Shown here piece by piece: positions 2,811 through 51,314 of a DNA stretch of 64,000 nt. The position numbers were made by a program, and so were the translations under genes. The DNA is from Prorocentrum cordatum (lineage: Eukaryota > Sar > Dinophyceae > Prorocentrales > Prorocentraceae). Under the pieces are notes generated by a model. The model was not told the DNA's origin. It saw only the letters and a list, made by a program, of their open reading frames with translations, and made no database searches. The stretch is from contig CAUYUJ010016154.1 in the NCBI GenBank assembly GCA_963575745.1, positions 65,651 to 129,650 on the forward strand. The letters are read 5' to 3'. How positions within the stretch are numbered: the stretch's first letter is position 1; each line of letters begins with the position of its first letter.

Positions 2811-2900
2811 CGGGGAGGAGGAGGAGGAGGAGCAGGAGGAGGAGCAGGAGGAGGAGGAGGAGGAGGAGGAGGAGGAGGAGGAGGAGGAGGAGGAGGAGGA
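2811..2900. repeat. (GGA)n tract abutting LINE-1 3' end
   Basis: Nearly pure GGA repeat (CCT on the sense strand of LINE-1). It begins directly where the LINE-1 3' untranslated sequence stops, about 53 bp after the last stop codon. Confidence 0.95.
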
Positions 2901-2953
2901 CACGCACGTGGCTGATGGGGTGTTCGATGTCCGCCGTGAGAGAGCACGGCTGA

Positions 2954-4994
2954 CTATGGAGGGCTTGGTGCCTCCTCTCCACTGACCTTGGCCTGCTCTT
3001 CGCGCACCAATCTGGCCAGGGGGATTGCGGGGGTCTTATATATGATCGGGGATGACTTAGAACCCTTGGGATCACGACCCTCCTGGACACGGGCAAGTTG
3101 AGTAGCCGCTCCTTGGTGGCTCACTCGAGTGCCACAGCCTCCAGTGAGCCCTCGACCCAATCCTTCAGAGTAGGATCCACACTTATGGCACACCGGAATA
3201 CTCGTGGGATGATCAAGGTGCTCATAATGAAATAAAGCATGGCCTTTATTATCATGTACGAGGTCTGACAGCTGCTTGCAGTGGCCAGGACATTCCTTGG
3301 CCGCAAGAACTGCACTCTGTTTGGTTGACTTCGTCTGCACCCTACACAGAATGCACCGATGATACTGCGCAATTGATGCCCACGCATGAAACCTCCTAGG
3401 TACTCTGGGCTCGCGAGGGACCTCGTGAGGCACAGGCGAAGGAGGGGGAGGAGGAGGCACGACCAACGACGGCGGCGTCCACGACGTCAGGGCAGAGGCA
3501 GCACCCGTGGGGGGAGAGAGGCTCTTCTCTGGGGCGGCCAAAGCTTTGTTCTTTCTGGGGGCTATCGCGGGCCACTCCCCCAGAGCCTGAGCAACGTACT
3601 TGAGATATTTAGTAGCAAACTTCCTATCTTCGGCGAAATTGCACTTCTCATCTTCGCTGGGCTGAACGCCCTTGTGTGCTGCGGCCTTCGCTAAGCGATC
3701 CGCAGCATCATTACCTTCCGCCATTCGACGGGCCTCGCTGCCTACGGGTAGGGCTTGTGTATCTTGATGGGCTTTGACCTTTTGGAGCCTCGACCCTAAA
3801 GGAAAGAGCCCTCTGCCAGCCAAGACTTTAAACCCAGCCCAAAGATTGCGACGGGGGTACTCGGTGCCTTGATGCAGCAATAGTACTCCCTTGTAGTCAG
3901 AATCAATCACTTCAACACTGCTAGACATAAGACTGGCCGCGACTGCAGCCACATGCTCCGCGGCTCCCGACGTTTGTAAAAGCAGCTGGCCGACCCGGCC
4001 ACTGAAATGGGCAAAAATTTCACCTTCTCTGAAACAAACTACAGCGAAACCAGCAGCGTTGAGCACATAGTGCCCATGATTGGTGCAACTGCCATCTATA
4101 TACACTTCCCCCTCGCTGAAGGCCTCTTGAGGGGTGATACCTTCTTGAGCACACCAAAACTCCCCAAACTCTAAACCAGATCCAGGAGGAGGCACTCCAC
4201 GGAACTCAGGGACCAGCTGGAACCCAAGACGTAAAAGGGGGGCCTGGGGAGGGGGCTCTCTTAAACGCTGAAGCTCCGCATCCGAGAAGTGAGTGGCTCT
4301 GAGAACTTCTGTCTTCTGGCAGTGCAGTAATCTGTGGCAGAGGTTGTCCGAATGATGGCCGCACTCGCAGCCGACTGGAACTTCATATCCTGCTGCTTTG
4401 GTTCTCTCCATGGTCCAGATACTTTGGGTGAGGAAGGCGAGTAAGGTGCCTTTCTGATGTCCAGGAAGGTCTGACGAGAGAGCCATCCGAGCAGCAGTAA
4501 CGTGTAAGTGAGCGCCCGCGTGGCCGAGGTTGACGGCCGCCTTGGAGGCGAGCTGGCCGTGCCAGTCGTGCTCCATGAGCTTTTGGAGGAAGGCGGGGGG
4601 ATGTCCTGGGAGCGGGTACTCAAGACCTGAGGCAGTCACAAAGGTAAACGGCCCCTGGAACTTCCAACCAATACGCTTCAGCGACAGCACCGCCGCACTG
4701 ATGGGGGCCCCTGGAAGAGCCCCACGATTTAGAAACCCTCGGGAGGATGTTTTCAGCCCAAGCCCGCAGCTGTTGGAGACTAGCCACGGCCAAGTGCGGA
4801 TGGGTGTTCGCATCCCAAACTAAACGATGCCACATAAGGGCGGGACCGAGGGCCGCTTTCCACAAAGGGGTCCTGGAGGATGAGCAACGCCAAGCTGCGG
4901 CTGCGGGTCGAGCATCTCGGGCCCGCGGCAGCCAGAAACTGCGACCTAGCAGATTCAAGTTGAGTGCCGTTGATGCCAGTGACCTCAACTCCAA
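2954..4994 (-). pseudogene. LINE-1 ORF2, RNase H and C-terminal Cys domain
   Basis: After a shift near 4790 a 619-codon frame runs to TAG at 2954-2956. It contains a Cys/His cluster (CECGHHSDNLCHRLLHC), then an RNase H domain with YIDGSC (about 4105-4085), a Glu in SGAAEHVAA, Asp in VIDSDYKG and EGNDAADRLAK. The C-terminus has CILC..., HC and a CHKCGSYSEGL...QLARVQEGRDPK segment. An equivalent tail is found in LINE-2 and LINE-3. RNase H would remove element RNA from the hybrid during integration. This block itself is largely open. Confidence 0.88.
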
Positions 4995-6554
4995 AAGTGG
5001 TGGCCGCTTCCAGGCCAGTCTTATACAGTTTGTGAGTGGTTACCCCCCAGCACGTTTTAGCATGCGGACCCTGTTAAGTCTTTTACGCATCTTATCAAGA
5101 CGCCCCGTAAGTTTTCGAAGCTTTCTCCATCTTCTCTGGGGGCGGCCAGCCCCAGTTTCAACGCCCAGGTTGGATCCCGAACGATCAGGGTTCGGGCCTG
5201 CCAGAGGCCCTAGCTTAGTCCTGAGCTGGTCCTGCAAAGCTTGGTGAGACGCTAGCACCTGGGTCTTCTTGCTGGCAATCTGGCTCTTAAACTCGTGGAT
5301 GGTGCAATCCGCCATCGATCTTGCGGCTATGTTCAACTGGCTGACGATGAGGCTGAAACTGCGGCCGTGGCACTGGAGCAGCAAATCATCAATGAACATC
5401 GCGAGTCTAATGTGACTATGGGCCTGTGTCCATATGTCCAAGGGGGCGAGCGCATACATCTGCACAAGGTACGTGGCCCAACTGCAGCCAGCAGCAATGC
5501 CCCTCCACGGTTTGCCGACGCTGACCGCGCAATCTTTCAAGGAAACGGTACGTTCGCTGACATATTGCGATGGAGTGCTGCGAAGTAAACAACATGGAAA
5601 ACCTGACTCAACAGCACGATGCGCTAGACAAGGCCGATCAACATGTTCGTAATAGTTTGATAGATCGTAAAAGGACCTGGGCGCTGTATTGTTGATATTT
5701 GGCTGAGCTGTTGAACTCGCATTCCAAGGATTGTTTATAGACCAATTCAACAATAGAGTGGCCAGCCTGGTGTGCAAGATCAGGCCGACGATGGTGGGCT
5801 TCCCACTCTCTGACCGCTGACCTCCTAAGGCGGGCCCAGACACGATAGAGCGCTGGTAGCATGCCAATGGACCTGAACGAGGGCTGACTGGCTGGAGTAT
5901 CATGTTGTTTCTGTTTCATCATAAGCGTAGAGACAATCCCCTGGAGCTGAGAGTCGGCATGTGATCAACCTTCTCGATCAGAGAGATCAATTGGCAGACG
6001 ATCCCCGCCTGCTCATTATTCAACATACTGAAGTGCTGCGGATGAAAACCGTCCCAGGTCGAAGCTGTGGCGCGAGGAAAGCTACGCGCAACTTGCCGAA
6101 GCCTCTTGGGGGTAATCGGGCCCAGGGCGACACGATCATCGGTATCGGGAACGAGCTGAGGTGGGGTCTCGGGGGAAACTTTCCATGTCTTAGCTAGACG
6201 ATCAGCTTCGACCTGCAATATATGCTGGGGCCTGCCGGCGCACTGAGACTGGCATTGCACAGACGACGGGCGCCAGGCCTCCAGCCGTTTAGACCATCTG
6301 TGAGCCCATCCCATTCCCCTTTTCATGTTAGACTGGACCCATTCCCTCCAAGCCCTCCCATCTGCGGCATTATCCGCCGCCTGCTCCTGGTGCAGGAGCT
6401 TGGTGATCTGCTCTAGCAGCTCGTCTAGAACTTGCAGCGCCAACGTCTGGTCTAGAACGACAGCCTGAAAAAAGTAAGAAGCAAACCTGCGGCCACTCGA
6501 ATATCCTGAAGCCCCTCCTTGAGGGACACCGCGGTGGAGAACAACTCGGGGCAA
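4995..6554 (-). pseudogene. LINE-1 ORF2, reverse transcriptase domain (broken)
   Basis: Three frames together cover the reverse transcriptase. 6554-5919 carries the linker and a TWDGFHP motif. 5922-5740 carries RSIGMLPALYRVWARL. 5903-5040 carries motif A (FYDLSNYYEHVD, about 5679-5639), a GIAAGCSWATYL motif B and the catalytic FIDDLL motif C (about 5400-5384). The FIDD box is a variant of the usual YxDD with both aspartates kept. LINE-2 has the same DL(R/S)(K/N)YYE and xIDD signatures, so the two belong to one superfamily. At least two frameshifts make this copy non-coding as it stands. Confidence 0.88.
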
Positions 6555-7708
6555 TCCTCCAGGCTGTCCAGGGCGCCTTGAAACTCAAGCAAATTCCAGT
6601 CCTGAATACAGCGTCTAAAATCCTGAACTCGGTTACACAACCATCTTAACGGGCCCGTATAGGCCACCCATTTGGCTCTGCTGCGAGCCGCTTTGGCCCC
6701 CGCGGGGACCATGAGAACCTGAGGGGGGTGAGCCCTGGGGAACTTACTGGGTTTGATAGGCGCGTTGGTTCTCCCACTGACTGCAGCTTCCAAGTCCTGG
6801 GCCAGGGTGAAGTACACGTGGTCCAGGATCGACGTCGACTGTTGATCGGTGAGAGGCCGTTGAGCATCATCGATCAATTGCGAGGCATAATCCACGATCG
6901 CGGCAGTCTGGTGCCAACTCACTTCTGGTAACTGCGGGCCCACTGGAATGTGAGTGGGCAGCTTCTGGGGCCTATGCAGCGAGGGGATATTAAAGTTATC
7001 CTGGGCAGCAATATCCAACAGCACGGGCCTATGAGGGGAGAGAGGATAGGAGGCCAGGGTGCGGGGGTTCTGGAGCCAAGGCGTGAGGCCTTGGCTGGAG
7101 ACAAAATAGTCGAGGGTCGACTTGGTCTTCTTGGTTCTGTAGGTGGCTGTCGGGGGCGCAAGCACAGCCATGGTGGACCTGGACAAAAACTCGGCCTGGG
7201 CCAACCTGGTGGGGGCCAAATTGAAATCCCCCGCGACCAAAACTGGGTGCGCTAAGTCATCTTGAAGTTGGCCTATGGTGGCCAAGAGATTGAAATTGGT
7301 CTCCGAGAGACCTGCAGCAGCTTGGAGATACGTAGAACACAAAGCGAATGTTGGGATCCCTGGGAGCTCCAGGATCACCCCAGACAAACGAGCGGGTTCA
7401 CACCCCGAGGGAATCCGCAGAGGTTTGACCCCCAGGTCCAGACCATCCCGAATCAAAATCGCGACGCCCGAAATCAGCTCATTGTTGGGGTTCACTGCAG
7501 CAGAAGTTATGTAGGCCAGCCACCCTTGAGACGCGCACCATTGTATCTGGCGTACAATGCTATCGCCTTCGGCTAACTTACACTCCTGGGCACAAGCGAT
7601 GGTGACTGCGCTGGCTTGCGGTGGTTGCAAAAACTTGCGAACGGCAGGCCAGCGCGATCCGTTGATGGTGGCTAGTTTATAATTCTGGTTACCCTGGCGA
7701 CGGGCCAT
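6452..7708 (-). pseudogene. LINE-1 ORF2, EEP endonuclease domain
   Basis: Start chosen at ATG 7708 (MARRQGNQNYK), inside the ORF1 end. The endonuclease/exonuclease/phosphatase fold is visible: INGSR at residues 15-19, catalytic-type QE at 41-42, GDFN at 160-163, STLDYFV at about 198-203 and SPHRPV with His225. In LINEs this domain nicks the chromosomal target to prime reverse transcription. The frame continues through a linker and ends at 6452. The true protein would shift frame near 6540 to continue into reverse transcriptase. Confidence 0.9.
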
Positions 7709-8847
7709 CACTTGCGACCGCGGCGGCCGCTGCAGCCGCCCTAGCCTTCTTGGTCTCGGGGCCGCCGTCGCCCTGGATCTTGGCCATGCCGTTGGCGACC
7801 TGCTCCAGAGCCGCAGCAGCACGAACACGGCCTTGCGTCTCGTCCATCGGGGTCGCTTCGATGGCGTCGGCGAGCGGGGCCTCCTCCAGCTCCTTGTCAT
7901 CCACCGGCGTCGGGACATGCTGGCCTGGAATGGGCTGGGGCGCTTCTGGCTCATCTGCTCGTTCGCCAACTGCGGGGAAGCCGTCAGGCTCCTGTGCTGG
8001 CTGAGACCCCTTGCCCTGGCCAGCGCCCTTCGCCTGGGTCTCCACAGACATGGTGTGCTGGTGCTGCATGTTGTCAAACAGCTGCGCCAGCTCCGATACT
8101 TTAGCTCGTAGTTCTGTTGGGGCCTCACCACCCTCGGGCATGCGCGCTGCCAGCATGCCTTGGAGAGTGGTGAGCAAATCCTCATCCTTGGATGCCTCGT
8201 ACGCTGCTGCCTGGGTGGCCAGGTTGAGCTGAGACTCCAGGGGCTGCACTTCTTTGGTGTTGATCTCGATCTCCTCGACCAGCTTGCCGTGGTCTTCGCT
8301 GGCCTCGACGATGGTGTGCACAAGATCCGTCGCTTCGTTCTTCTGGGCCATGAGCTTCTGGCGCGCGACCTGCAACTGATCTGACAGTGACTGCGCCTGC
8401 TGCTCCAGGCTCTTGGCGGACAGGGCCTGCGCCTTGGCAAATTTGAGCTTGCCCAGCGCCGCCTTGTGTTCCTCTCCGTCTGGTTTCCACTTCTTCCAGA
8501 AAGTGACCTGCGCTTGGGCCAGGGCCACTGGATCTTCACTGTGGGTGTCATCATCCGCGAAGGTGACCTTGCGACCTCCTCCGCGGCCCAGGCCAGGGGG
8601 GGGGCTCTGGCCCGCGGGAGTTGTGCCTCCAGCGGCCTGGCTTGGTCGGTGGCTCATGGACGTCAGGCCGATCATCCTGAGCTCCTCCACCTCCCCCTGC
8701 TGGGCGATCTGCATGCGAAACTGACTCCGGGCGCTGCTTGAAGCGACTGCCACACTGGATGCAATGGCGAGCATTAGCAGAGCACCAAGACCACCCTTTA
8801 CAGCCTCGCTTCGAGCAGACGACATACTTCCTCTGGGCCGACGACAT
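7689..8847 (-). pseudogene. LINE-1 ORF1 (zinc motif + coiled coil), frameshifted
   Basis: Start chosen at the ATG at 8847 (MSSAQRKYVV). This places a Cys-rich motif (CSKRGC...WCS...HCIQCG) at residues about 11-33, like the N-termini of ORF1 in LINE-2 and LINE-3. A one-base shift near 8740 moves the frame to a long acidic region with a VTFADDD motif and a Gln/Glu/Lys-rich coiled coil (roughly 8500-8080), then a Pro/Glu-rich tail and an Ala run, ending at TAA 7689-7691. ORF1 proteins of LINEs bind element RNA, which is inferred here from position and architecture. The ORF2 start overlaps its last 20 nt. Confidence 0.8.
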
Positions 8848-9005
8848 CTCCTGTCTCCCCTGTGCAGCAGCACACGCAGGAAATGGGCCCAGCAGGTGGC
8901 ACTAGTGCGGGACGTGGTTGTGCCGCTGCCTGGGGCTGACCAGGCTGGCACTGGGAAAACGCAGGCTTGGGCCCGAACGCCCAGGGCCTTCCCTGGATGG
9001 CAGTG

Positions 9006-9027
9006 CTTGAGCCAAAATGGCTACGGA
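9006..9027 (-). other. Dinoflagellate spliced-leader (DinoSL) relic
   Basis: On the minus strand these 22 nt match the canonical dinoflagellate spliced leader as I know it (TCCGTAGCC... to ...TTTTGGCTCAAG). In nature it is trans-spliced to mRNA 5' ends from small SL RNA genes. Here there is no SL donor GT after it and it fuses straight to the LINE-1 5' leader, so it is a reverse-transcribed relic rather than an SL RNA gene. Its first T overlaps the flanking (TCC)n. Confidence 0.95.
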
Positions 9028-9080
9028 GGAGGAGGAGGAGAAGGAGGAGGAGAGGGAGGAGGAGGAGAAGGAGGAGTGCA
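9028..9080. repeat. (GGA)n tract abutting LINE-1 5' end
   Basis: GGA repeat starting immediately after the spliced-leader relic. It reads as TCC repeats in the LINE-1 sense direction, the same repeat and orientation as at 2811-2900. Confidence 0.95.
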
Positions 9081-26990: not shown

Positions 26991-27081
26991 CGCGGCTCGA
27001 CCACCGACGGTTTGTGCAACCTGAGTCGAGCTGCGCGCTGCTCGGGCCAAGAGTGATTGTCAGGGAGCCTGGACTCCCGAG

Positions 27082-28218
27082 ATGGTCCCGCCAGTGCCCG
27101 TGCACCGGCGGAAGTGGTTCTGCAAGACGTGCAAGCACGAGAAGTCGGGGAAACAGTTCCTCAACTTTGCGGAGAACACGCAGTGCCACATGTGCAAGCG
27201 CTCGAAGAGCGCCTGCTTCGGGGGCTATATCCAGGCCAAGGAGCCCTCTGTTTCGTCAGGGCGCAAGGGGGCGGCGAGTGGCGAGCCAGCCCCGTGGGTC
27301 AAGGCCTCGGAGGTCGCCAAGCTGGCCGAGCAGGTCAAGCAGCTCGAGGCCAAGCTGGCCAATGCGGGATCGGCATCACACGCGCCCCTGCCAGAGGTCT
27401 GGGATGTGGACCTTGGGTGCGAAGCCGTGCCCGACAAGGACCGCCTGGCCACCGTCGAGCGTGAGCTATCCACCATCGCAGGCCTTGTTGGCGAGAGGTG
27501 GTCCAAGCTCCGTGAAGACCTCAAGCAGGAGAAGCAGCGGCTTGAGCAGAAAATGCTTGCCGAGCAGCCCTATTGTAAGCGGCTGCGGGCACTCCTGGGC
27601 CGAGTGGACGAGGCGGAGCAGAAGCTGCTCAAGTCCAAGAAGCAGCAGGAAGCCAGCCGCAAGCGACTCGCGGAGGCAGAATCGGCGCTCCGCGATGCCG
27701 ACAAGCGGGTCCAGGAGCAGGAGGCTGAGCTGGGTCTGCTCAAGGCGCAGCAGATGGAGCTGGCATCGCAGGGCATGGCTCAGGGGGTCCAGCTCGAGCC
27801 CGGCACGGCGGCAGCCGTCTCGGCTCCCATGCTCCAGTTGGACGCGTCCAAGGTCAAGGGCTTCCTCGAGCAGGGCCTCGACCAGCTTGGCGTGCACGTG
27901 CCCGACCTTTCGGCGTTTGCGCAGGCCTTCTGCGAGCAGGTGCCAAGTTGCACCTCGCAGGTCTTTGTTCGGGTCCAGCCCCCTGGGGCGCCCTTGGGCC
28001 CTGCGCCGGGGACGCCGCCTGGCGATGCTACTGGCGAAGCGGCTCCGGCGCCCGTGCCCATCGTTCCCATCGAACAAGTACGGGCGGAGCTCACCATGGG
28101 AGGGGTCGACCCGCCCGCATCGGAGGAGGAGGCCAGGTCCTTGCACGGTCAGTTGCGCGCCGCGTTCGGAGGCCGAGCGAAGCCAGGGGCCAATCCTCCG
28201 GGCTTCTCTCCGATGTAA
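27082..28218 (+). CDS. LINE-2 ORF1: zinc motif and coiled-coil protein, 378 aa
   Basis: ATG at 27082 gives MVPPVPVHRRKWFCKTC. A C-x2-C ... C-x2-C motif (WFCKTCKHE... then NTQCHMCKRSK) lies at residues about 13-38 and resembles a small zinc ribbon. Residues about 70-230 are Lys/Glu/Leu/Gln-rich with heptad character (coiled coil). The C-terminus is Pro/Ala-rich. The frame is intact to TAA at 28216-28218. By position and architecture it is the LINE nucleic-acid-binding ORF1 protein, probably packaging element RNA. The ORF2 ATG lies 8 nt after its stop. A longer frame overlapping it in another phase is a shadow. Confidence 0.85.
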   Translation: MVPPVPVHRRKWFCKTCKHEKSGKQFLNFAENTQCHMCKRSKSACFGGYIQAKEPSVSSGRKGAASGEPAPWVKASEVAKLAEQVKQLEAKLANAGSASHAPLPEVWDVDLGCEAVPDKDRLATVERELSTIAGLVGERWSKLREDLKQEKQRLEQKMLAEQPYCKRLRALLGRVDEAEQKLLKSKKQQEASRKRLAEAESALRDADKRVQEQEAELGLLKAQQMELASQGMAQGVQLEPGTAAAVSAPMLQLDASKVKGFLEQGLDQLGVHVPDLSAFAQAFCEQVPSCTSQVFVRVQPPGAPLGPAPGTPPGDATGEAAPAPVPIVPIEQVRAELTMGGVDPPASEEEARSLHGQLRAAFGGRAKPGANPPGFSPM

Positions 28219-28225
28219 GCTGAAG

Positions 28226-30600
28226 ATGCTGATGATGATCCTGGGCATCATGACGTTCTTCTTCATGCTTCGGACCGATTGGGACCTGGTCTGTGAGGTC
28301 CTCGCTGGCAGGGATCTGCGCATCGATGCTGCTGGGCAACTTGGTGCGGCCTCGCCCTCGCCGCGGGCATGGCCAGAGTGCAGGCTGAGCCGGTACGGCG
28401 GTCAGGCGTTCCCCTACGGCGACGCGTTCCTCTCTCGGGAGGAGGAGCGGCTGCTCGGCGATGCTTGGTGGCAAGGACGTGTGGCCGCCCGTCGTTTTAG
28501 AGAGCGGCCCATCCTGGATTGCGAGGCTGGCTTTGCAGCTGGGCTGGGGGCGGCCTTGGAGCCGCGGCGCTGGGGCACGGTGCCATCCGACGCTTTGCTC
28601 GTTGCTTCGCACGCCACCCGTCTGCCTGCTGCTGCGAGCCCGGCTATTGATTGGCCGTCGACACTGCAGACTGCGTCTACAGCGGCATCAGCAGAGCGAG
28701 CGCAAGGCCCTGACTGCGAGTACGCTCCAGTCGGGGGTGGGCGCCCAGACCCTGACTGTGAGGACGCTCCAGTTGGGAGTGGCGACGCTTCGGCGGCCAC
28801 TCGCGGGGCTCCCGGGAGGGAGGTGGTCGATTCCCCCGCTGGTCAAGACCCTGACTGCGAGCTGGCACGCCAGCACCAGTTGGGAGCGGCGCCTTGGGGA
28901 GCTGAGCATTTGGAAGCCTGCCCCAATGGAGCCGCTCGCGGGGCGCCCGTGAGGGCGGTGGTCGATGCCCCCGCTGGTCGCGCGATTTCTCGTGACGCTG
29001 ATCGTGGCCGGTCGGCGTCAGCTTCAGTGCAAGTACCTCCCAGCACGGCTCGGGGAGGGCATGCGAAGATGTCGACCACGCCACGAGGAGGGCAAGCAGC
29101 AGTAGCAGCAGCTCCACAGGTCGGAGCCCCAGCCCAGCCAAAGCCGAAGGCGAGACCCTCCTCGAGCTCAAGGTCGGGGCCCACTGTGTCGGCGACGGCG
29201 GCTCCCTCGCCCTCCAAGGCTGTCGCTGCTCGGGCGTTGTCGTGGACCCGGCCCGCTAGCGGGCTCAGATTTGTAGTGGTTTCTTACAACTGTAACGCTT
29301 GGTCGACGGGCCAGTCGTTCTTGGAGTGGCTTCATCACGAGCAGGGTTTGACACCAGATGTAGCGCTGCTGCAGGAGACAAGGCTCACGGGCCCCAAGAC
29401 AGCGCCAGCTCGAAACTGGGCTAGTGCTGCAGGCTTCGTCATGTCCAGTGGCAACGCAGGATCGACTGGGGCAGAGGCGCTTTGCACGTCTGGTGGAGTG
29501 GCAGCTTTGGCTTCCAAGAAATATGGGTCTGCGGTGTGGGCGCTCCCGTCCACCGCGCCGCCTCACAGGATTCTTGCCCACCAGGTCACGGTCGATGACA
29601 AGGTGCGAGTTTTGTTCATTTCCATATATTGCGTCACGTCCGAAGGCATGGGGCCCAACAACCAGGCGCTCCTTGGAGAACTGCAGGAGGTGGTGCTGTC
29701 AGCTCAGCTCCCTGTGGTAATCGGTGGGGATTGGAACATGGATCCGCAGGAGCTACAGGCTTCGCAGTGGCACTCCGACCTGAGCCTCCAGGTGATGTTT
29801 CCTGAGGCCCCGTCCTGCCAAGGTCGCCGCCTGGATTTTTTTGCTGTCAGCCATTGCCTCGTGCCGTTTGTGCGGCGGATAGATACTATTGTTAGCACCC
29901 CTCCGGGACCGCATGCAGCCGTGCGCCTCACTTTTCAAGGGCTGCACCGGCAAGCGAAAGTGTGGCAGCGCGTTGTGCCCAAGTCTTTCCTACTTCAGTG
30001 CGAATCCTCCTCCTCCTCCTCCTCCTCCTCCTCCTCCTCCTCCTCCTTCTCGGCCTCCACACCCAACATGTTTCAAAATGATTTAAAACATGTTGCGCAT
30101 CCGGACGTTTTGCCTCAGCTCCCATCGTCGTTTGAGTGGGGGTGGGAGGCTGCTTCTGGGCCGGAGGACCCGTGTGAGGCTGCGGGGGTTTGGTTCGACT
30201 TGGCCGAGCGTTGGCTCTGCTACCGCCACAAGGTGCCAGAACATGATAAGAAGAAGCACTGCGGGCGTCGAGCGGCCTGTACATTTAAGCAGGTGCCTCT
30301 GTCAGCGGCGTGGGGCAGAGAGCTCCGCCGCCGCTCGACTCGCAGCACTTTGAAATGGCTGTCGTTTCGTAGAGCACTGGCGCAGCTGCTGTCGCTGCCC
30401 GCGTCGAGCGAGCAGGTCCGGCCTCACCTCCTCTCGTGTTTGCTCGAGGCCGACGCCATCATCCCTGAGGCCTGGGAGGAGGAGCTGAGGGAGTTTTCGG
30501 CGCTCCAGGTTTTGGAGTCCCTGCAGGACCCTGCTCGGAAGACCTCTGTGTTTGCTGCCCTGGCTCGTGAATGCCAGGCTCGGCTGAGGCGGACGCGAAG
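28226..30600 (+). CDS. LINE-2 ORF2, N-terminal part with EEP endonuclease
   Basis: Start chosen at ATG 28226 (MLMMILGIMTFFF), 8 nt after the ORF1 stop. Residues about 150-260 contain degenerate repeats of PDCEYAPVG/PDCEDAPVG and AARGAPxRxVVDxPAG. The EEP domain spans about 349-570: VVSYNCNAW, LLQETRL with the catalytic-type Glu near 384, GGDWNMDP near 500, RRLDFF and a PHAAV His. This domain cuts target DNA. A (TCC)15 run encodes Ser at 30006-30050. The frame shifts by one base between about 30565 and 30600 into the reverse transcriptase frame. The N-terminal repeat region lacks an obvious counterpart in LINE-1. Confidence 0.85.
30003..30098 (+). repeat. In-frame (TCC)n plus small palindrome inside LINE-2 ORF2
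   Basis: About 15 TCC units encode poly-Ser between the endonuclease and the next region. Next comes AACATGTTTCAAAATG paired with TTTAAAACATGTTG, a stem of about 10 bp. The reading frame is preserved across it. Confidence 0.85.
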
Positions 30601-33600
30601 CGCGCAAAGCAGGAATGGCAAGACTTCTGTAAAGAATCCGTCACCAAGGGAGCCAAGAAGGCCCACGATTTTTCGAAGGAGCCCGGTTCAGCGGCTTCCC
30701 CGGTGTGGGGGGACGAAGGCGAGGAGGGTGGAGCCCCCCTCGCAGGCCAGCAAGCTTTGCGTCAGATCCTGAACGAGTGGGAGCCCCTTTGGGATAACTC
30801 GACGCGCAGGGGGGAAATTCACCCGGCAGCATGGGAGGTCCGGGACGACCTGCCCCCCATCACGGCAGAGCAGGTTTTGGCTGCATGCAAATCGTTCGGG
30901 AGGGGGAAGGCTTTGGGTTGGGACGGCTTTCACCCTCGGTTGATGGAGCAGCTGCCATCAGAGTTTGCTCGGAGATTTGCGGATGTGTTGAATGCTTGGG
31001 AGGCGGATCCGCGGGTCTCTCAGCTCTGGCTCATTCTGGTTATTTTTCTAGACAAGCCGACTGGGGGTGTGAGGCCGATCGGCCTCCTCCCCCTCTGGTC
31101 GAGGGTCTATTCGAAAATTCGGCACCAGGAGTGCGACAGGTGGGAGAAATCCCACGGCTGTAAATTGTTCTGGGGCCAGGATAGCTCGTCAGCGTGCGAC
31201 AAGAGTGCGTGGCTCCACAATGCCCTTGCGTCTTATGCAAGGCTCAAGGGCCTCTCCATGGCCTCGGCCTTTCTCGACCTCCGGAAATACTACGAGAACA
31301 TCGGCCACGCTGAGCTCCGAGAGGCAGCTCGCGAAGTAGGCTTCTCAGAGAAGTTGTTGCGATCGTTGTGCTGCATTTACCGTGCGGAGCGGCGCGCAGT
31401 ATTTCAGTCAATCACGTCGCCGGCGCTGCATGCGAATGGTACAGTAGTAGCGGGCTGCTCTTGTGCAACCTCACTGGCCAGAGTTATGGTTTTGGTGACT
31501 CTTCGCAAGGCAGCAGCGGCCAATCCGATTGTCACGATCCGTAGTGTGATTGACGATGTTTCGTTTCAAGCCCTTGGGGGTCCCTCCACGGTTGCTCAGC
31601 AGTTGCCTCGAGCGTTTCAATTGGTTTCGCAGTCGATGATCTCCAGGGGCCTCCCTATTTCTTGGCATAAGGCGGGCTACTTGGCCTCGTCGAGCCAGCT
31701 GGCCAGGGACATGGCTCCGAATTGGGCCTTGGGGCCCGAGGATCGCGTTGTGGTCCACAGGGATCTCGGAGGAGATGCCGTGGATGGCACGGCTCGCAGG
31801 TGCGAGTCTCAGCTCTGTCGGTATCACGACTCCCTCAGGCGAGGGAAGCGGCTGCGCATCCTACAAGCTGGAGGCGCGCAGATTGGAGCTGCCCATAAAT
31901 CGGGGCCGACGGCGGTGGCGATGTGGGGGTCGTGTATTTCAGGAATCCCTGATGGGCGCCTCACAACGCTGAGGGTCCAGGCAGCTAAGGCGCACGGGAG
32001 GCTCCCTCGAGGAGCGTCCCTGGGCCTCTCTCTCATGTCCAGCAGGTCGGGCTGGAGGCGGGATCCGCTCGTGCTGACTAGCGTTGATTCTTTGAAGACC
32101 TTTGCTGCCGTGCTCTGGGAGGGGCACCTCGCGCGAGCGGTTCTGGAGGGGCTGCTTGCGCAGGCGATGCAGCATGCTCAGAAGCTTCGTCCATGGATCT
32201 CGGCCAAAGATCCTGTGATGGCCCTGGTCCTTACGATGAAAAGGGTGGGGTGGAGCTTTCGCGGCGTGACCGCTGCGGTTGACGACTGGGGCGGGGAGTG
32301 GGACCTGATGTTTTATTCGCCAGGTTTCTTGTCTCAGCTCGTGGCTCACTCAGCCCGGCGCGCGTCCGACAGGCGAGCGCTGTTGCTGCAGGACAAACGG
32401 GGGCCGTGGGATTCGGGGCTTTTTTGGAGACCCACGCTGGAGCTCTTGTTCGCCAAGCCCTCGGAAGGATGGACGCAGCACGATCAGAACGTGCTGCGAG
32501 GTCTCATTGTGGGATCCCATTGGAATCAGCTGCTTATGAATAAGCACGAGCCGTCTCTGCCTGACGTTTGCATGCTTTGTGAAGGAGGTCACGGTACCTT
32601 CTTTCACCGAGCGTTTTGCTGCCAGGCCCACGCCCTCTGGAGGCGTGACAATCTTGAGTCCCTGGTCGAGCGCGCGCAGAAAAGAATGGCCACGGCGCCG
32701 CACCAATGGAGAGAGCGGTTTGCGAGAGCGATCTTCCCGGAGCCGAATCAGTGTTTTCGCCGCCGGGATTTTCAGGCGGAATGGGAGGTCCGCTACCAAG
32801 GTGTGGATCTGCCAGTGCTGCTAGAAGGGGGATACGTCTTTGTGGACGGATCGGGATTTGATGGTGATTTTCCGTCGATTCGCTGTGCTGGGTGGTCGGC
32901 GGTCTTTTATGATTCTGAACGTCGGTATGTGGGAGTGATGTATGGGGCAGTGCCCCCGCTTTTCGCGCCCCGGCAGGTGGCCAGAGACGGGGAAGACTTT
33001 GCGGTCCTGAAGGTGTCGGAGTTGGTGTTGGGCCAATTTTCGGTGTTATGTGATTGCAAAGGAACCCTTGCGTGCTGCATGAAGCCTGCCATGGCGCAGG
33101 CACCGTCCAATGCTCGTGCGCATATCTGGAACAGGGTCCATTCGAGAGAAGATTTCACACAGCGCCCCTTCATTCACGTCAAGGGCCACGCGACCTCCGG
33201 GGATGTGGAGGCGGGAAAAATCTCGCCGTTCCACCGCCTGGGGAATTCGCAGGCAGATGCGTTTGCCAAAAAAGGGGCGTTGCAAGCTAGAGCTGACGAG
33301 TCAGACGTCCGAGCCCTGGAGGGGTTCAGGGCTGTAGCGAGGCAAGTGGCGACGTATGTGGCGCGGTGCACGGCCATGGCTGTAGACACCGAGAAGAGAG
33401 ACCACTTGCCCATCGATTACTTGAAGACGGTGGACCTTGGAGAGCTCCCCGGCGATCTTTGTGACGCTGAGGCCCTTGCCGTGCCCCTGGGCGCTCCTGT
33501 GTCCAGCCTCCCTCCTGGTGTTGTTGCCTCTTCGTCCCAGGGGGTGTCGGCGAGTGGTCTTGGAGAGGCTGCCATGTCCAGGGGCTTGCTCCACCTTAGT

Positions 33601-34091
33601 CCGTGGAAGGTTAACGAGCACAGTGTTTTAGCTGCCCAGGTCTCTGAAGGAGACCAGGTCCTGTTTTGCTCCTCTTGTTGGCAGTTTGCGGTCCAGCTGA
33701 ACCAGCGTGGCCTTAAGGAGCCGTGCAAGGGACCCGTAAGATCTCTGGTGGGGCCGCATACACGTCCCGTTTAAGGCTCAAGAGGGGCGAGCACCCCACG
33801 AAAGCAGGCACGTTTTTCGCCGATGTTAGGTCCCCCTCCGGGGCCACCCGCGAGGGCTGGTCCAGCCACTTTGGTTTGGCAGCTGGCAGTGGGGGTACAG
33901 CTGCTGGCCCGAGCGTGCGCCCTTTCATTGAGCAGTCGGCCCCTGTTCGTATGGAGCTTGCTGCTGTGCTTTTCGCCTTTGGGTTGGGCTCCCGAGAGGA
34001 GGTGGAAGCTGTTGGTGCGCGTGAGCTGGAAGCTCGTGCGTTAGCGCTGTCTCGGAAGGCCAAGGGAGATCCCGACCCTGAGGCCATGTGA
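30571..34091 (+). CDS. LINE-2 ORF2, reverse transcriptase, RNase H and C-terminal Cys domain
   Basis: A 1067-codon frame (30571-33774) begins with KQEWQDFCKES...KKAHDF, equivalent to a motif preceding the LINE-1 reverse transcriptase. The reverse transcriptase has GWDGFHP, RPIGLLPLWSRVYSK, motif A FLDLRKYYENIG (residue ~234), motif B GTVVAGCSCATSLA and catalytic VIDDV (~327). A Cys/His cluster (CMLCEGGHGTFFHRAFC) precedes RNase H: VFVDGSG (~755), Glu in SELVL, Asp in LCDCKG and NSQADAFAKKG (~893). The tail has FCSSCWQF...LKEPC. A one-base shift at about 33727 moves to a frame that continues the tail (SRLRLKRGEHPTKAG) to TGA at 34089-34091. The VIDD box keeps both metal-binding aspartates. Apart from two shifts the copy looks young. 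Confidence 0.9.
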
Positions 34092-34228
34092 TGTTTTTTT
34101 TGGGGGGGTGCCCTGTCGGCGGGCCCTGCCTGGGGGATGGAACCTCAGGTTGGGAACAAAAAGTTCTCATCGGATGGGCGCCCCCACCCGATTTTCCCTT
34201 CTTTCCCCCTTGACTTCTCCCCTCTATG

Positions 34229-34481
34229 GGCAGTGAACCTCCTCCTCCTCCTCCTCCTCCTCCTTCTCCCCCTCCTCCTCCTCCCTCCTCCTCCCCATCA
34301 TCCTCCTCCTCCTCCTCCTCCTCCTCCTCCCTCCTCCTCCTCCTCCTCTCCTCCCCTCCTCCTCCTCCTCCTCCTCCTCCCCCCTCCTCCTCCTCCTCCT
34401 CCTCCTCCTCCCTCCTCCTCCTCCTCCTCCTCCTCCTCCTCCTCCTCCCCCTCCTCCTCCTCCTCCTCCTCCTCTTCCTCC
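34229..34481. repeat. (CCT)n tract between LINE-2 and LINE-3
   Basis: Nearly pure CCT run directly joining the 3' end of LINE-2 to the 5' end of LINE-3. Both elements are in the same orientation relative to it. Confidence 0.96.
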
Positions 34482-34638
34482 CTCAAGCCATATCGGCCCG
34501 AGCACCAAGTCCTCTTCCCCCGTGGAGAGGCCGCGTGTTCGCGCCGCCTCGGTGCCGTCCCGTGGCGCTTGAGGGACAACCTCAGTCGAGGGTGCAGCCC
34601 AGCCCTCCAGCTTTGGTTGACTAAAGCCGAGGTTCGCC

Positions 34639-35741
34639 ATGAGCCGTTTGTGGTCATCGTGTCAGCACTGTGGGCGACAGGAATACAACGAATTGTTGAT
34701 TGTGAGAGGCCAGAAATGTGTTTGTGGCAAGAAGGTTACATTGTGGAAGCCCAAGAAGAAGCCACCCGCCCCCGTGGATGGAGTAGTGCAGGCTGCTCCC
34801 AAGGGTCCCTACGGAAGTCAGTGCGCTTTGCTGACGGACAGGGTGGTCTTGACAGAGGAGGCGGTGGCTCACGACCTTCGACGCCAACTTCTTCCCCGAG
34901 GGGATCGGCAGGGGTGCAGAAGGATCAGGATTCAGTGGCATCTCATCTTCAGGCGGCACTCCAGTCAGCGCGAGACCCTGAACTACGTGCCAGTCTTCAG
35001 CAGCAGCTCGATAAGCTTCAAGCCCAGAGGAGCCCAGGTGCTTCCAACGTGGTGCAGGCCATGCAGCAGGCCGACGGAGCGTGGAGAGATGCGAAGAACC
35101 GCCATCAACAGGCGGCCACATCAGTTTTGCGATTGGAGAAGAATCTCGCAGCTGCCCGTGAGAAGGAAGCTAAGTTGTCCAAGTTGGTAGCAGAGGCCAG
35201 TTTCACAAGGTCGCAGGCTGCTGCAGCGGTGGCAACACTTGAGGGAGTGACAGGCACTGCGCAGCCGGATTCATCTATCAAAGAAGAGAAGAAGCCCGTC
35301 GATGTCGTGTGGGACGAGGATCTTTTCAACAACTTGGATCAGCTCGAGTGTGAGCAGGCGGAGCGAGAATTGTTGCGTAATTGTCTGGCAGAGTTGCAGT
35401 CGCAGAAGGCGTCCATTTCCACCACAGCCGACGAGGTTGCTCAGCTGGTCGAGAGAGCTAAGGCAACCAAGGCCGCCATCACTGAGAGGTTGGCCAAGAA
35501 GCGTCGTAACAATTCAGGTGAAGCTGATGGTAGTTCCCCTGCAGGTGGTGCTCCAGCAGTCGCAGCTGAGTCGTCAGGCGCTGGATCGGTGACAGCAGCA
35601 TCTCCAGAGGTTGAGGCCAAGCAGAAGGCAGAGAGGGAAGCCAAGATTGCAGCCGAGGCGGAGAGGATCTCGCAGGCGCAGTTCCAGGCCCAGAGGCACG
35701 CGGAGCAGGCCGCGGCGGCATACCAAAATCCTTCGCATTGA
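34639..35741 (+). pseudogene. LINE-3 ORF1: zinc motif and coiled coil, one frameshift
   Basis: ATG at 34639 (MSRLWSSCQHCGRQEY) gives a C-x2-C ... C-x-C motif (CQHCG, KCVCGKK). A one-base shift near 34810 leads into a second frame with KSVRFADGQ, the counterpart of VTFADDD in LINE-1, followed by a long Gln/Ala/Glu/Leu-rich coiled coil (about 34920-35500) and an Ala/Glu-rich end. It stops at TGA 35739-35741 (QNPSH*). The TGA is followed in the same frame by ORF2. Role inferred as RNA-binding ORF1. Confidence 0.8.
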
Positions 35742-35745
35742 CTAG
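35739..35745 (+). promoter_or_regulatory. Possible stop-codon readthrough site TGA-CTA-G
   Basis: The ORF1 stop is TGACTAG and the next codons stay open in the same frame straight into the endonuclease. A stop UGA followed by CUA(G) is the best-known leaky context in eukaryotic readthrough genes and some viruses. Whether it is used here is inference. Confidence 0.45.
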
Positions 35746-37203
35746 GGACTACGAAGTCCCCCCGTGCGGCTTACGAGCCGCGTGCCCGTCCTCAGCTACC
35801 AGAATTCTCCACCGTGCTGTTCGGGAACGTTACGTCCATGGGCGACAAGGTGTGGGACTTCGCCGTGGCCAACTTCGAGGCGGGCCATGTAGATGTGTGC
35901 GCTTTCGCTGAGACGCATGTTTCACGTGCTAATTCGACCACTTGGTTTAAAAAGGCTCGTCGAGCCAACATCAGGTTGCATATGAACCCAGCCCGTAAGA
36001 CAGGTCGTGCGGTCACTGTTCAAGGCCAGGATCGTGACACTGAGGGTGGGGAGTGGATTTTGATGTCTGGTCACAGGCAAGCACACTCTTTAGTTCACCA
36101 GCTCGATCGTGTTCATGAGTTCCAGCATGATGGTCAGGTGGCAGTTGACGGGTTTGCGGCTGTACATATACATATGTCTGGGTATTCGTATGTGTTAGTT
36201 TCCTGTTATGCCTACACTTCGGTGGGTATGGCCAGCTCGAACCTTGCTAGGTTCGCAAAGCTGGGGGCCTTTTTGGCCGCGCTGAAACTTCCCTGGGTCC
36301 TTGTGGGAGATTTCAATCTGTCCGCTGCCGTACTCGGTAAAGCTGGATTTTTCACTCGCGTAGGTGGTCAGCCTGTGCACCCAGGTACAGAATACACTTG
36401 CGATTCGGGTAAATCTGGCTCTAACATAGACTTTGCCGTCATCAGCTCGGCAACGGCTCCATATGTTCACTCGATTTCACCCGTGTTTAAGGTCCCGTGG
36501 AAAACTCACTGCGGTCTCAAGATTTTGATGAGATCGTCTGGCAAGCAGTTAATTCAGAGGGCCCTTCAGCTCCCGACGAAGTTGCCTCAATTTGCCAGGC
36601 CCACCACTCGGCCTACGGAGGGGTCTAAGTCCCAGGCAGCTAAGGCCCAGCGAAAGCTTAAGGCTGAGGCTTTTGCTGAGCGTCGTTCACAATACTATTC
36701 TAACCTTTTTGGCGACGCGTGGACTCGTGAGGAGAACGAGCGCAGTCGTGCCCGAGAGGTCAGCGCGCCAGCTGATCTCGATGACTTGTCTGATGCGCCC
36801 TCGGAGGGATCCTTGGGCGCACGAGCTAAATTTTTTGGATGCTCACACGTCGGCGTCGCCAGGAGGACTGGATGCGTCGGTTCCCCCGGGGGTCGGATCC
36901 TCTCGTCTTCCCGACGATTCTGCTCAGGGCCGGCCTGGCCAACACGGTATGTCCATCATGGGCGGGCGGTTTCACTTGCCCCAGTATGCCCATTCTGTCG
37001 CGCGGGGTCTTGCTGGTGAAGATCACATAATCGTCGTCTCTGAGCCATACAGTCGACCCTATGCTCATGTTTCTATGCGTGAGCTGTCGAAACCATGTTC
37101 TCATAAGCTTGACCCCCATCGCCGAGAATATTTGTCTCGTATCGATGATGGGTTGTGGCCGAAAGCTCTCAGTAAAGCTGAGAAGCTCACTCGTGGCCAG
37201 TAA
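35742..37203 (+). pseudogene. LINE-3 ORF2: EEP endonuclease joined to C-terminal tail
   Basis: In frame with ORF1 beyond its TGA. EEP signatures are FGNVTSMG (near 35820), FAETHV with the catalytic-type Glu (35901-35918), GDFNLS (36307-36324), NIDFAV (near 36423) and a KTHCG His (near 36503). After a linker ending near 36800 the frame shifts by one base and reads a tail (FLDAHTSASPGGLDASVPPG... then ELSKPC...YLSRIDDGLWPKAL) homologous to LINE-2 after its RNase H. TAA ends it near 37203. No reverse transcriptase or RNase H motif lies between. No ATG is needed if readthrough is used, and the first in-frame ATG would already be inside the domain. Confidence 0.82.
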
Positions 37204-37238
37204 TTCCTGAACCACTACGTGGGATAGCCTGTTCCTGT

Positions 37239-46439: not shown

Positions 46440-48065
46440 GCCCCAGAGAGTACTCACTACTCATTACTCACTACCCACTACTGACTACTCGCTATTCACT
46501 ACTCACTTCTCACTACCCCCTACTCACTATTCACGACTACTCACTACCCACCACCCACTGTTCGCTACTCACTACTCCCTTCTCACTACTCCCTCCTCCC
46601 TACTCACTACTCACTACTCACTCCTCACTACCCACTACTCAATACTCACTACTCAGTAAGCACTACTCACTAGTCACTGATCACTAGTCACTACTCATGA
46701 CCCACTACACCCCACTCACCACTCGCTACTCACTACCCACTATTCGCTACCCACTTCTTGCTACTCACTGCTTACTACTCCCTACTCCCTACTCACCATT
46801 CACTACTCACTACTCACTACTTGGTACTCCCTACTCGTTACTCACTAATCACTACCCACTACTCACTACTGACTTCTCTCTACTCACTACTCACTACTCA
46901 CTACGCCCTACTCGCTCCTCACTGCTCACTACTCGCTACTCCCTACTCGCTACTCACTACCCAATGCCACTACCCACTGCTCTCTATTCATCACGACTCA
47001 CTACTCACTACTCACTACGCACTACGTACTACTCAGTATTCAGTACTCAGTACTCACTACTCACTACCCACCACCCATTACTCGCTACTCACTACTCCCT
47101 ACTCACTACCCCCTCCTCCCTACTCACCACTCACTACTCACTCCTCATGACCCACTACTCAATGCTCACTACTCAGTAAGCAGTACTCACTACTCACTAC
47201 TCACTACTCACTAATCACCACTCATTACCCACTACCCACTATCCACTATCCACTACTCACTACTAACTACTCATTGCCCACAAAGCACTACTCACTACCC
47301 ACTACTCGCTACTCGCTACCCCCTGCTCCCTACACAATACTGACTACACAGTACTCAGTACTCACTACTCGCTACTCTCATACTCGCTACTCAATACTCA
47401 TTACTCACTCCCCGCTACTCACTATTCACTACTCACTACTCCCTACTCACTAGTCACTACATAGTCTCTAGTCACTAATCACAACTCACTAGTCACTAAT
47501 CACTACTCATTACCCACTACACCCCACTCACCAATCGCTACTCACTACCCACTATTCGCTACGCACTTCTTACTACTCACTGCTCACTACTCTACTCCCT
47601 CCTCCCTACTCACTACTCGCTACTCCCTACTCGTTACTCACTAATCACTACCTACTACTCACTACTGACTACTCTCTACTCTCTACTCACTACTCACTAC
47701 TCACTACGCCCTACTCGCTCCTCACTACCCACTACTCGCTACTCCCTACTCGCTACTCACTACCCAATGCCACTACCCACTGCTCTCTATTCATCACTAC
47801 TCACTACTCACTACGCACTACGTACTACTCAGTATTCAGTACTCAGTACTCACTACTCACTACCCACCACCCACTACTCGCTACTCACTACTCCCTACTC
47901 ACTACTCCCTCCTCTCTACTCACTACTCACTACTCACTCCTCACTACTCAATACTCACTAGTCAGTAAGCACTACTCCCTACTCCCTACTCACTACTCAC
48001 TAATCACTACTCATTACCCACTATCCTCTATTCACTACTCACTACTAACTACGCATTGCCCACAA
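46440..48065. repeat. ACTCACT heptamer satellite, block 1
   Basis: Degenerate (ACTCACT)n with variants CCACTAC, CGCTACT and CCCTACT. A higher-order period is visible: CCAATGCCACTACCCACTGC occurs at 46961 and 47763 (802 bp apart) with similar surroundings. Repeating Thr/His/Tyr/Ser/Leu frames are artefacts. Confidence 0.95.
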
Positions 48066-48134
48066 AGCACTACACCGGACTCACCTCTATAGCGCTCACT
48101 TCTATAGTGTTCACTTTGACATTGTGGTCCGGAA

Positions 48135-48315
48135 GGGGCCGCACATGCAGGCACATGCCGCACAGTCGCATGCACATGCCCATGCAAATATACAAAAGCC
48201 TCAACAGCATTGCCGCACATGCGCGCACATGCCACACCGTCCGACGCACAGTCGAATGCACGGTCAAGCAAAATTCTGAAAGCATAGACGCACATGCCCG
48301 CACATGCCGCAGAGA
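48135..48315. repeat. GCACATGC repeats, set 1
   Basis: CGCACATGC, GGCACATGCC and CGCACATGCGCGCACATGCC words every 8-12 bp. Confidence 0.85.
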
Positions 48316-48344
48316 TGTCGCAGGCGATAGTGGCCTGACCACCT

Positions 48345-49230
48345 GAGCTCGGGGCATTTCGCAACCCAGAGTTCCGAGGATGTCTCAGGCAAGCGTGGCC
48401 GGATCACCATGGGGCAGGGCATCTTGGAAACCAGAGTGGCGAGGATGTCGCTGGTCAAGGTGACCAGACGACCATGGGGCAGGACACCTCCGAGGTCTGA
48501 GTTGTGAGGATGTCTCAAGCGAAAGTGGCCTGACCACCATGGGGCAAGAGATCTCTGAGGTCAGAGTTGCGAGGATGTCTCTGGGGAGAGTGGTCTGACC
48601 ACCTCAGCCCAGGGCATCTCGGAGCCCAGAGTTGCGAGGATGTCTCAGGCAGGACTGGCCTGACCACCTGCTCAGGGCATCTCAGAACCCAGAGTTGCGA
48701 GGGTCTCAGGCGAAAAAGGCCGAGACACTATGGAGCAGGGCATCATTGAGGTCAGAGTTGCGAGGATGTCTCAGGCAAAAGTGGCCTGAACAGCTCAACT
48801 CAGGGCATCTCGGGCGAGGATGTCTAAAGCGAAAGTGGTCTAACCACCTCAGCTCAGGGCGTCTCGGAACCCAGAGTTCCGAGGATGTCTCAGGCGAAAG
48901 GGGCCGAGACACTATCGAGCAGGGCATCATTGAGATCAGGGTTGCGAGGATGTCTCAGGCGACAGTGGCTGACCACCTCAGCTCGGGGCATATCGGAATC
49001 GAGACTTGCGAGGATGTCTCAGGCGACCGTGGCCTGACCAGCATGGGGCAGGAGATCTCTGAGGTCAGAGTTGCGAGGATGTCTCATGCGAAAGTGGTCT
49101 AACCACCTCAGCTCAGGGCGTCTCGAAACCCAGAGTCCCGAGGATGTCTCAAGCGAAAGTGGCCGGGCCACCATGGGGCAGGGCATCTCCGAGACCAGAG
49201 TTGCGAGGATGTCTCAGGCGAAGGTGGCCA
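48345..49230. repeat. 65-bp tandem array, ~13 copies
   Basis: GAGGATGTCTCAGGCGAAAG starts units at 48376, 48441, 48506, 48571 and 48636 (exactly 65 bp apart), continuing with small indels to about 49215. Units alternate between ACCATGGGGCAGGGCATC and ACCTCAGCTCAGGGCATC subtypes. Confidence 0.94.
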
Positions 49231-49645
49231 GATCACTTCATGTCAAAGCAGTCGGCCTCCAGATTGCCGACGACGTCTCACGCGGAACTGGCCGGACGCG
49301 AACGCGCCGGCGTCCGGAGACGAACGCCGGCCCCGGCATTCTTGCACGTCCCGCACATGCACTGCACAGGTACGCACAGTATTCGCACAGGCCGAGCTCG
49401 CCGGTGGCCGAGCCAGGCCAGCGATTCCGAGATTCCCTGAGCTCGGGCCGTCAAGCCACTTTCGCCTGAGACATCCTCGCAACTCTCACCTCCTCCTCCT
49501 CCTCCTCCTCCTCCTCCTATCCTCTGGCCGAGCCGAACAGGCAGGCCAGCGATTCCGAGATTCCTCGGGCCGTCAAGCCCTTTCGCCTGAGACACCCTTG
49601 CAACTCTCCTCCTCCTCCTCCTCCTCCTCCTCCTCCTCCTTCTCC
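49231..49645. repeat. 65-bp unit fragments with two short CCT tracts
   Basis: Inverted partial units (CTTTCGCCTGAGACATCCTC at 49459 and a relative at 49578) each precede a CCT run (49490-49518 and 49606-49640). Each run is followed by TCTGGCCGAGCCGAACAGGC. The whole ~115-bp module is duplicated. Confidence 0.8.
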
Positions 49646-49964
49646 TCTGGCCGAGCCGAACAGGCAGGCGGGCCGGCCGAGCCGGGGGCGCCCGCCTCCT
49701 CCGCCCCCCCCTCCTCCCCCCCCCTCCACCTCCCCCCCCCCATCCCTGCTTCTCCGGCCGAGCTGAGAAGGCGCGCGGGAGAGTATTTTATTAGGCGGGC
49801 GCGCCACCGCCAGCTCACGAACCGGGCGAAGAACCGCCCCCGCCAGCAGCGGGCGAGTCTAAACGCACAACAAACTCTTTCAGGAAGCCCTGGCACGCCC
49901 CAGGTTAGCTCTGCGAAGGCCAGGAGGCATTGGAGGCACAGGGGTCCCAGACAGCTCCTAGGGC
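49646..49964. other. Unassigned GC-rich sequence
   Basis: C/G-run-rich then unique sequence. No gene is supported. Confidence 0.45.
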
Positions 49965-50340
49965 ATGAGCGTGCATGTGCATTGGGATGTGCACGCATGT
50001 GCGCCCGCGCGCTTCACCGCATGTGCGTGCATGTGCGGGCCCGCGCGGCCTCCCGAAGAGAGGTTGCGCAGGCATGTGCGTGCATGTGCCGATGACAGAT
50101 CTGCGATTCTCGAACACCTCCCGCATGCGCAGGCATGTGCGCGCATGTGCGTCGGACTGTGCGTGCATGTGCGTATGATGGATACATCAAAACACAGCGC
50201 ACATGCCCCCGCACATGTCCGGGCACGACGTGCACAGTAGGAAGTCCATCCAAGAAGGACCGCACAGGCCTGGCACATGACTGGCACATGCCGCGCACAT
50301 GCGCGCACATGACAGCGCCAAAACGGCCGCACATACACCC
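49965..50340. repeat. GCATGTGC then GCACATGC repeats (inverted pair)
   Basis: 49965-50175 carries GCATGTGCG-type words. 50195-50335 carries the complementary GCACATGC words, so the two halves form an inverted pair. The second half is in the orientation of the array at 48135. Confidence 0.85.
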
Positions 50341-50369
50341 ACCCAGGGGTATAGATGTGAGTGCGGTGT

Positions 50370-51310: not shown

Positions 51311-51314
51311 CCTA

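Follow-up and report, generated by a model that had tools for sequence, protein, structure and literature searches.

This locus raises the question of how a LINE came to begin with a complete dinoflagellate spliced leader (SL), and whether such a leader is the regular 5' end of its family. The element, termed E1, lies in a 64,000-nt stretch of the Prorocentrum cordatum genome (GCA_963575745.1, contig CAUYUJ010016154.1, positions 65,651 to 129,650), hereafter the window. An initial annotation had placed a 22-nt SL match exactly at the junction between flanking (TCC)n and the LINE. This is borne out: E1, flanked on both sides by (TCC)n, carries TCCGTAGCCATTTTGGCTCAAG on the minus strand, identical to the SL at all 22 positions, between the element-sense (TCC)n tract and the LINE body (Table 1). 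It is the only SL match in the window at up to three mismatches, and none appeared in 100 shuffles.

Table 1. Coordinates of E1, its flanks, and two further elements in the window
Feature	Position	Strand	Remarks
Complete SL, 5' end of E1	9006..9027	-	22/22; 0/100 shuffles; first 3 nt common with the TCC tract
5' flanking (TCC)n tract, element sense (target)	9025..9076	-	
LINE E1 body	2901..9005	-	without the ~34-nt family leader; terminus GTGCGTG
E1 ORF1-like open stretch, 443 codons	7692..9020	-	no Pfam family above cut-off
E1 open stretch with endonuclease domain	6455..8653	-	Exo_endo_phos, 1.1e-6
E1 reverse transcriptase piece	5043..5915	-	RVT_1, 3.6e-5, below Pfam curated cut-off
E1 open stretch, RNase H-like part	2957..4819	-	RNase_H, 0.017, below cut-off
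3' flanking (TCC)n tract, element sense, without poly(A)	2814..2900	-	
Second LINE, E2	26992..34237	+	sense (TCC)n on both sides
Third LINE-like element, E3	34482..37238	+	ORF1-like stretch and endonuclease; sense (TCC)n on both sides

Origin of the spliced leader of E1

The domain order of E1 (6.1 kb) on the minus strand is endonuclease, reverse transcriptase, and a weak RNase H match (Pfam), in reading frames broken by frame changes. With an endonuclease, a reverse transcriptase, and no LTR, E1 has the sequence features of an APE-type non-LTR retrotransposon (LINE), to which class we assign it. A blastn search of E1 against the window gave no second match inside the element, and a protein homology search with its ORF returned nothing at E ≤ 0.001. 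Another sequence (G000 C6828:11821-12267) is 100% identical to the last 447 nt of E1 and is missing from the set of 40 scored 5' matches described below; it represents either a duplicated contig or a recent copy with a different 5' end.

An SL RNA gene, or chance similarity, beside the LINE could in principle account for the 22 nt, and SL-like sequences are abundant: a 21-nt SL pattern with up to two mismatches has 33,832 sites (16,858 + 16,974) in the 4.13-Gb assembly. The reversed pattern, however, matched only nine times; on this control and the shuffles, chance was rejected. The SL of E1 is followed by CA, so it is not an SL RNA gene; the GT splice donor is absent, and the SL RNA gene cluster that the annotation had considered as a source fails on the same point. 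GT is likewise absent after 28 of 30 sampled SLs (the first 30 listed, all exact, all on contigs 1 to 3). Because GT follows only two of them (L024 and L028), most of the sampled SLs are insertions and not SL RNA genes. An SL RNA gene or chance match at E1 thus has practically no likelihood of being correct. The template RNA of E1 was nearly certainly trans-spliced and SL-bearing.

How far this RNA was copied can be stated to within three nucleotides. Letters 1 to 3 of the SL are TCC and also fit the (TCC)n flank, so that 19 nt (GTAGCC...CAAG) are unambiguous. Copying to the very last 5' base, as originally claimed, is therefore supported as copying to the RNA 5' end or within 3 nt of that end, the outermost three positions being ambiguous. 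A T precedes CCGTAG in 27 of the 30 sampled SLs; among the seven flanked by GGA, six have T and one has A, which makes it plausible in general that copying reaches the first SL base.

Most family members begin with a nine-nucleotide SL remnant

Related copies were sought with the 350 nt after the SL of E1 as query, and 40 of 78 candidates were scored. These comprise E1, 29 places at 85-92% identity, a partial match with 90%, and a group of nine with 74-75%. For every one of the 39 places other than E1, the 5' end was fetched and classified. A 9-nt SL remnant at the pyrimidine tract begins 36 of the 39, being exactly TGGCTCAAG in 34 siblings and differing by one change in two (L052 and L069). 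A conserved leader, absent from E1 and L058, comes after the remnant. Because the leader was no part of the query, the 38 siblings with remnant-type letters before the leader were not selected for that feature.

The complete SL is the exception in the E1 family, and the 9-nt stump is the uniform 5' end. This contradicts the expectation that a complete leader would form the uniform end: 36 of 39 siblings start ~34 nt further out than E1 and hold only 9 nt of the SL. Full-length copies lacking the complete leader had been named in advance as evidence against the proposal, and these siblings are largely such copies, with the qualification that their start lies ~34 nt further out.

The exceptions are informative. 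L067 carries a complete SL, with one change, at the same junction as the remnant, and L083 carries a complete SL stacked on an older partial SL, CCATTTGGCTCAAG; stacking of this kind had been named as a feature to look for. In L058, TGACTCAAG is joined further in, after another AG (by eye). Four of the 40 copies (E1, L067, L083, and possibly L058) accordingly record trans-splicing or a look-alike. Given the complete SLs in L067 and L083 besides E1, trans-spliced element RNA has been copied more than once.

In E1, the SL is joined ~34 nt downstream of the usual sibling start. The two bases before the homologous position are AG in 32 of 39 siblings, CG in five (within 'TTCG'), and CT in one (within 'TTCT'), while L058 was not placeable. 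An AG that could act as acceptor is thus present at this join in most siblings and missing from six. The acceptor used for the SL of E1 was likely an AG within the family leader. The rival explanation is a small deletion: the SL would first have stood at the usual place, as in L067, and a later loss of 34 nt of leader between CTCAAG and CTCAG would have created a join that is no splice site. Short letters common to both ends of the missing piece fit such a loss, as do the siblings that resemble E1 just downstream (by eye), which have TTCG and no AG at the join. The deletion requires an extra event, however, and one ending exactly after the AG position; we consider it rather improbable. Either way, the RNA of E1 was trans-spliced. 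The original view that the insertion derives from a trans-spliced mRNA is supported by the complete SLs of L067 and L083 and by the AG that 32 of 39 siblings show at this join.

Insertion into (TCC)n tracts with target-site duplications

By script, TCC repeats make up half or more of the 60 nt that precede the aligned start in 38 of 39 siblings, and the 39th, L067, has a TCC tract before its complete SL (by eye); all 39 fetched siblings therefore lie in sense (TCC)n-rich tracts. Independent insertions share the same repeat and the same orientation, as is characteristic of microsatellite targeting.

For the 3' ends, the last 447 nt of E1 served as query, and 40 of 137 candidates were scored. 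Twenty 3' ends were fetched from the 39 non-E1 places, 18 of them from copies with a known 5' end. At all 20, CGTG is directly followed by TCC. None of the 20 flanks (~20-27 nt read) has poly(A), nor does E1; a 3' poly(A), as expected of a processed SL-tagged retrocopy, is thus lacking in these siblings and E1 alike. A few 3' tracts soon become C- or T-rich (L094, L101, L102, and L105).

Duplications of imperfect sequence, at least 8 nt long, flank six of the 18 copies with both ends, compared with 4 of 306 mismatched control pairs. Five further copies have a pure TCC duplication, which is uninformative, and seven have one below 8 nt; C3258 falls short of the threshold by one C. The duplication measures 15-16 nt in five of the six informative copies and 8 nt in one, whereas that of E1 is unreadable in pure TCC. 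The family thus shows the target-site duplications expected of a LINE. In the six informative copies, they directly adjoin the remnant, and the remnant start is therefore the element start.

Two copies on different contigs (L055/L098 and L059/L095; C19987 and C10645) share TCCTTCTCCTCGTCC in the 3' flank. Its last 12 nt recur in the 5' flank, as an imperfect flank common to both copies, although the sequence beyond differs. This 12-nt flank raised the idea that the TCC flank travels with the RNA; the duplications weaken it, though the two copies also agree in TCCTTCTCCTCGTCC on the 3' side.

The family leader is conserved and predicted to fold

A 35-nt pattern spanning remnant and leader occurs at 71 genomic places with up to two mismatches (50 with none) and at no control places; as the pattern contained the remnant, this number counts the family and does not test the link between remnant and leader. 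Between the two subfamilies, the leader stretch is 95.4% identical compared with 87.2% for the next 36 nt (L058, L070, and E1, which gave no match, were left aside), although subfamily 2 shares only 74-75% identity with E1 over 350 nt. Within subfamily 1, the corresponding values are 97.6% and 94.5%; within subfamily 2, where they are 98.7% and 99.4%, the extra conservation is absent.

The leader can form a predicted hairpin whose outer stem includes the AG of the SL. Pairing holds in 96.7% of cells (22 of 40 rows, 20 distinct), and one U-A to A-U change, probably a single event, separates the subfamilies; a second changed pair may stem from a misplaced E1 row. Folding energies of the leader loci are not unusual (weak z-scores of -0.6 to -1.5), and an Rfam search on six loci returned no match up to E 1. 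The 9-nt stump itself begins exactly at the 3' arm of a predicted SL hairpin, GCCA-UUU-UGGC, which appears in the predicted fold of L067 and not in that of L083.

SL insertions across the genome

In the 40 nt upstream of the 30 sampled SLs, we found TCC in 15, GGA in seven, and neither in eight. The combined 22 of 30 contrasts with 134 of 4,980 background stretches (2.7%) drawn from 200 kb of arbitrarily chosen loci on nine large contigs. Two exact SLs lie in other repeats, (AT)n for L011 and (CAT)n for L024, and other microsatellites may also be targets. Of eight diverged SLs (one to four changes) in the background loci, one is clearly at TCC (by eye), so the link between SL and TCC may be confined to young insertions.

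Three TCC units lying no more than 20 nt from GGCTCAAG, taken as a search pattern, matched 10,621 times forward (overlapping starts counted) and 4,278 times in reverse, against 103 and 223 for the controls. The first 100 matches listed reduce to 54 distinct ends: 30 exact SLs, 18 with few changes, and six others, among them one 9-nt form. Complete SLs thus account for 48 of these 54 TCC-adjacent ends, two or three of the 48 being doubtful, which led us to reject the idea that reverse transcriptase stops at SL position 14 in every family.

The sampled loci carry varied cargo. When the longest sense ORF at each of the 30 was compared with Pfam, 43 families were retrieved; the 25 shown, mostly WD40-type, each occur in one member, which indicates host genes among them. 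L001, one of the TCC-flanked loci, encodes a protein like the ORF1 product of E2 (tblastn 9e-10). L005 and L017, 90% identical over 1.5 kb, both lie at (TCC)n, with ATG following immediately on an exact SL. The 22 of 30 exact SLs next to TCC or GGA suggest that the known SL-tagged retrocopies of dinoflagellates are products of TCC-targeting LINEs.

Proposed renewal of the 5' end by trans-splicing and competing explanations

The best explanation of the whole, to which we give even chances, is a TCC-targeting LINE whose SL is renewed by trans-splicing and whose copying usually ends inside the SL. Members of the E1 family would use target-primed reverse transcription to insert into (TCC)n-rich tracts, consistent with the sense-strand TCC of every copy examined, with the lack of poly(A) in siblings, and with their duplications, most of which measure 15-16 nt. 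In an ordinary cycle, the sense (TCC)n tract would serve as polypyrimidine tract and the 9-nt remnant would supply the AG at which the element RNA is trans-spliced. Copying would then usually break off within the SL, where the loop of the GCCA-UUU-UGGC hairpin has its edge, restoring TGGCTCAAG, while rare copying to the cap would leave a complete SL (L067, L083, and E1). The original idea that every cycle re-creates the 5' end thus survives in a weaker form, with trans-splicing onto the remnant's AG as the possible means, provided that copying as a rule falls 13 nt short. Renewal with copying that ends in the SL is favored because the stump starts at the 3' arm of the SL hairpin. Such LINE machinery may also make the SL-tagged retrocopies of host mRNAs.

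Several observations count against renewal. TCC-adjacent SLs are nearly all complete, so a stop inside the SL would be peculiar to the E1 family. The SL hairpin is predicted in L067 and not in L083, fold z-scores are weak, and six siblings ('TTCG' in five, 'TTCT' in one) have no AG at the E1 join. More diverged SLs are mostly not at TCC. Renewal also leaves the conservation of the leader between subfamilies (95% compared with 74-75% over 350 nt) without explanation, whereas an internal promoter would explain it. The conserved leader, which E1 lacks, argues for caution on the idea, put forward at the outset, that the element may need no internal promoter of its own at the 5' terminus if it lands in transcribed DNA.

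An internal promoter, or precise 5' processing, is the core of a second reading, in which the RNA has a fixed start at TGGCTCAAG, the leader hairpin is the signal, the remnant is a fossil, and E1, L067, and L083 are trans-spliced by-products. The common start of 36 of 39 siblings and the duplications that abut it agree with this, as do the 71 places with remnant and leader, their conservation between subfamilies, and the paired hairpin with its U-A to A-U change. L067 speaks against a fossil, however: its renewed complete SL stands at that very junction, a coincidence that a fossil would not predict. The six loci searched gave no Rfam match, the covariation of the hairpin is probably one event, and within subfamily 2 the conservation of the leader does not exceed that of the following 36 nt (0.987 versus 0.994). 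Because almost all TCC-adjacent SLs elsewhere are complete, we rate a fixed RNA start nearly as likely as renewal and regard it as a serious possibility, somewhat short of even.

The link to host retrocopies has its own competitor: general insertion into microsatellites, by any break repair or by LTR-element machinery, with no special role of LINEs. The review of dinoflagellate retroposition, in the part available to us, leans to LTR elements (PMC6050394); two of the eight SLs with neither TCC nor GGA sit in (CAT)n and (AT)n, and the seven GGA-flanked SLs have an orientation never shown by the 39 LINE siblings. Against it, at these repeats the LINE siblings are strictly sense-oriented, carry duplications, and have fixed 3' ends, and we think general insertion rather improbable. 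Returning to renewal, we put forward, as less likely than not, a joint reading in which the LINE inserts in sense into (TCC)n as polypyrimidine tract, retains the final 9 nt of the SL for use as acceptor, has every new RNA capped by host trans-splicing, and regains its stump at each copying; the same TCC-directed machinery would make most of the ~34,000 SL-like insertions and so drive dinoflagellate retroposition.

Relation to known systems

The comparisons that follow refer to the portions of the cited papers available to us. SL relicts, stacked SLs, and retrogenes are already known (PMC6050394, PMC12014239, PMC8045281, PMC10235124, PMC11453091, PMC10666404, and PMC4640811 form our literature base). 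Dinoflagellate genomes hold many SL-tagged retrocopies; the review describes the element type behind them as unknown, with LTR elements more likely (PMC6050394). LINE-mediated retroposition of viral sequences has been proposed in Symbiodiniaceae (PMC10235124). In the literature searched, judged mainly by titles and the starts of abstracts and with most subscription papers outside its scope, we found no report of an SL-bearing or TCC-targeting LINE.

Like the recycled cDNAs with DinoSL relicts, E1 and its siblings are inserted cDNAs whose 5' end bears an SL or a stack of relict SLs; what was copied here, in contrast, is RNA of the LINE itself, and sibling insertions lie in a TCC microsatellite and show a duplication. 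A preference for a simple repeat is shared by microsatellite-targeting non-LTR retrotransposons, such as (TG)n-specific Togen and some HERO families (PMC4640811). Those are described with a restriction-like endonuclease, whereas the present family has an Exo_endo_phos (APE-like) type, targets (TCC)n, and starts with an SL remnant. Trypanosomatid LINEs with the Pr77 signature (PMC8190864) likewise pair a conserved short 5' leader with an SL trans-splicing protist; Pr77, as reported there, activates transcription and yields unspliced transcripts, whereas the E1-family leader begins with SL letters. In the E1 family, the 5' end of a mobile element has taken up a host RNA tag as a fixed component. 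Because SL marks, a TCC target, and LINE-type duplications are combined in one family, the source of SL retrocopies becomes testable by counting.

Other elements of the window

E2 resembles E1 only at the protein level (reverse transcriptase 32%, endonuclease 21%). Its 5' end shows no clear SL, and a PDB search with its reverse transcriptase gave no match. No reverse transcriptase was found in E3, which starts with CTCAAG, the SL end, followed by 15 nt of which 11 agree by eye with the relict SL CCATTTTGGCTCAAG; in the available part of one report, DinoSL relicts include a truncated form of CTCAAG plus CCATTTTGGCTCAAG that resembles this start (PMC12014239). E3 appears 3'-shortened yet bears TCC on both sides, and recombination between TCC tracts could be the cause. 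Elsewhere in the window, at 46688-51570, repeated coding-like units occur among the open frames.
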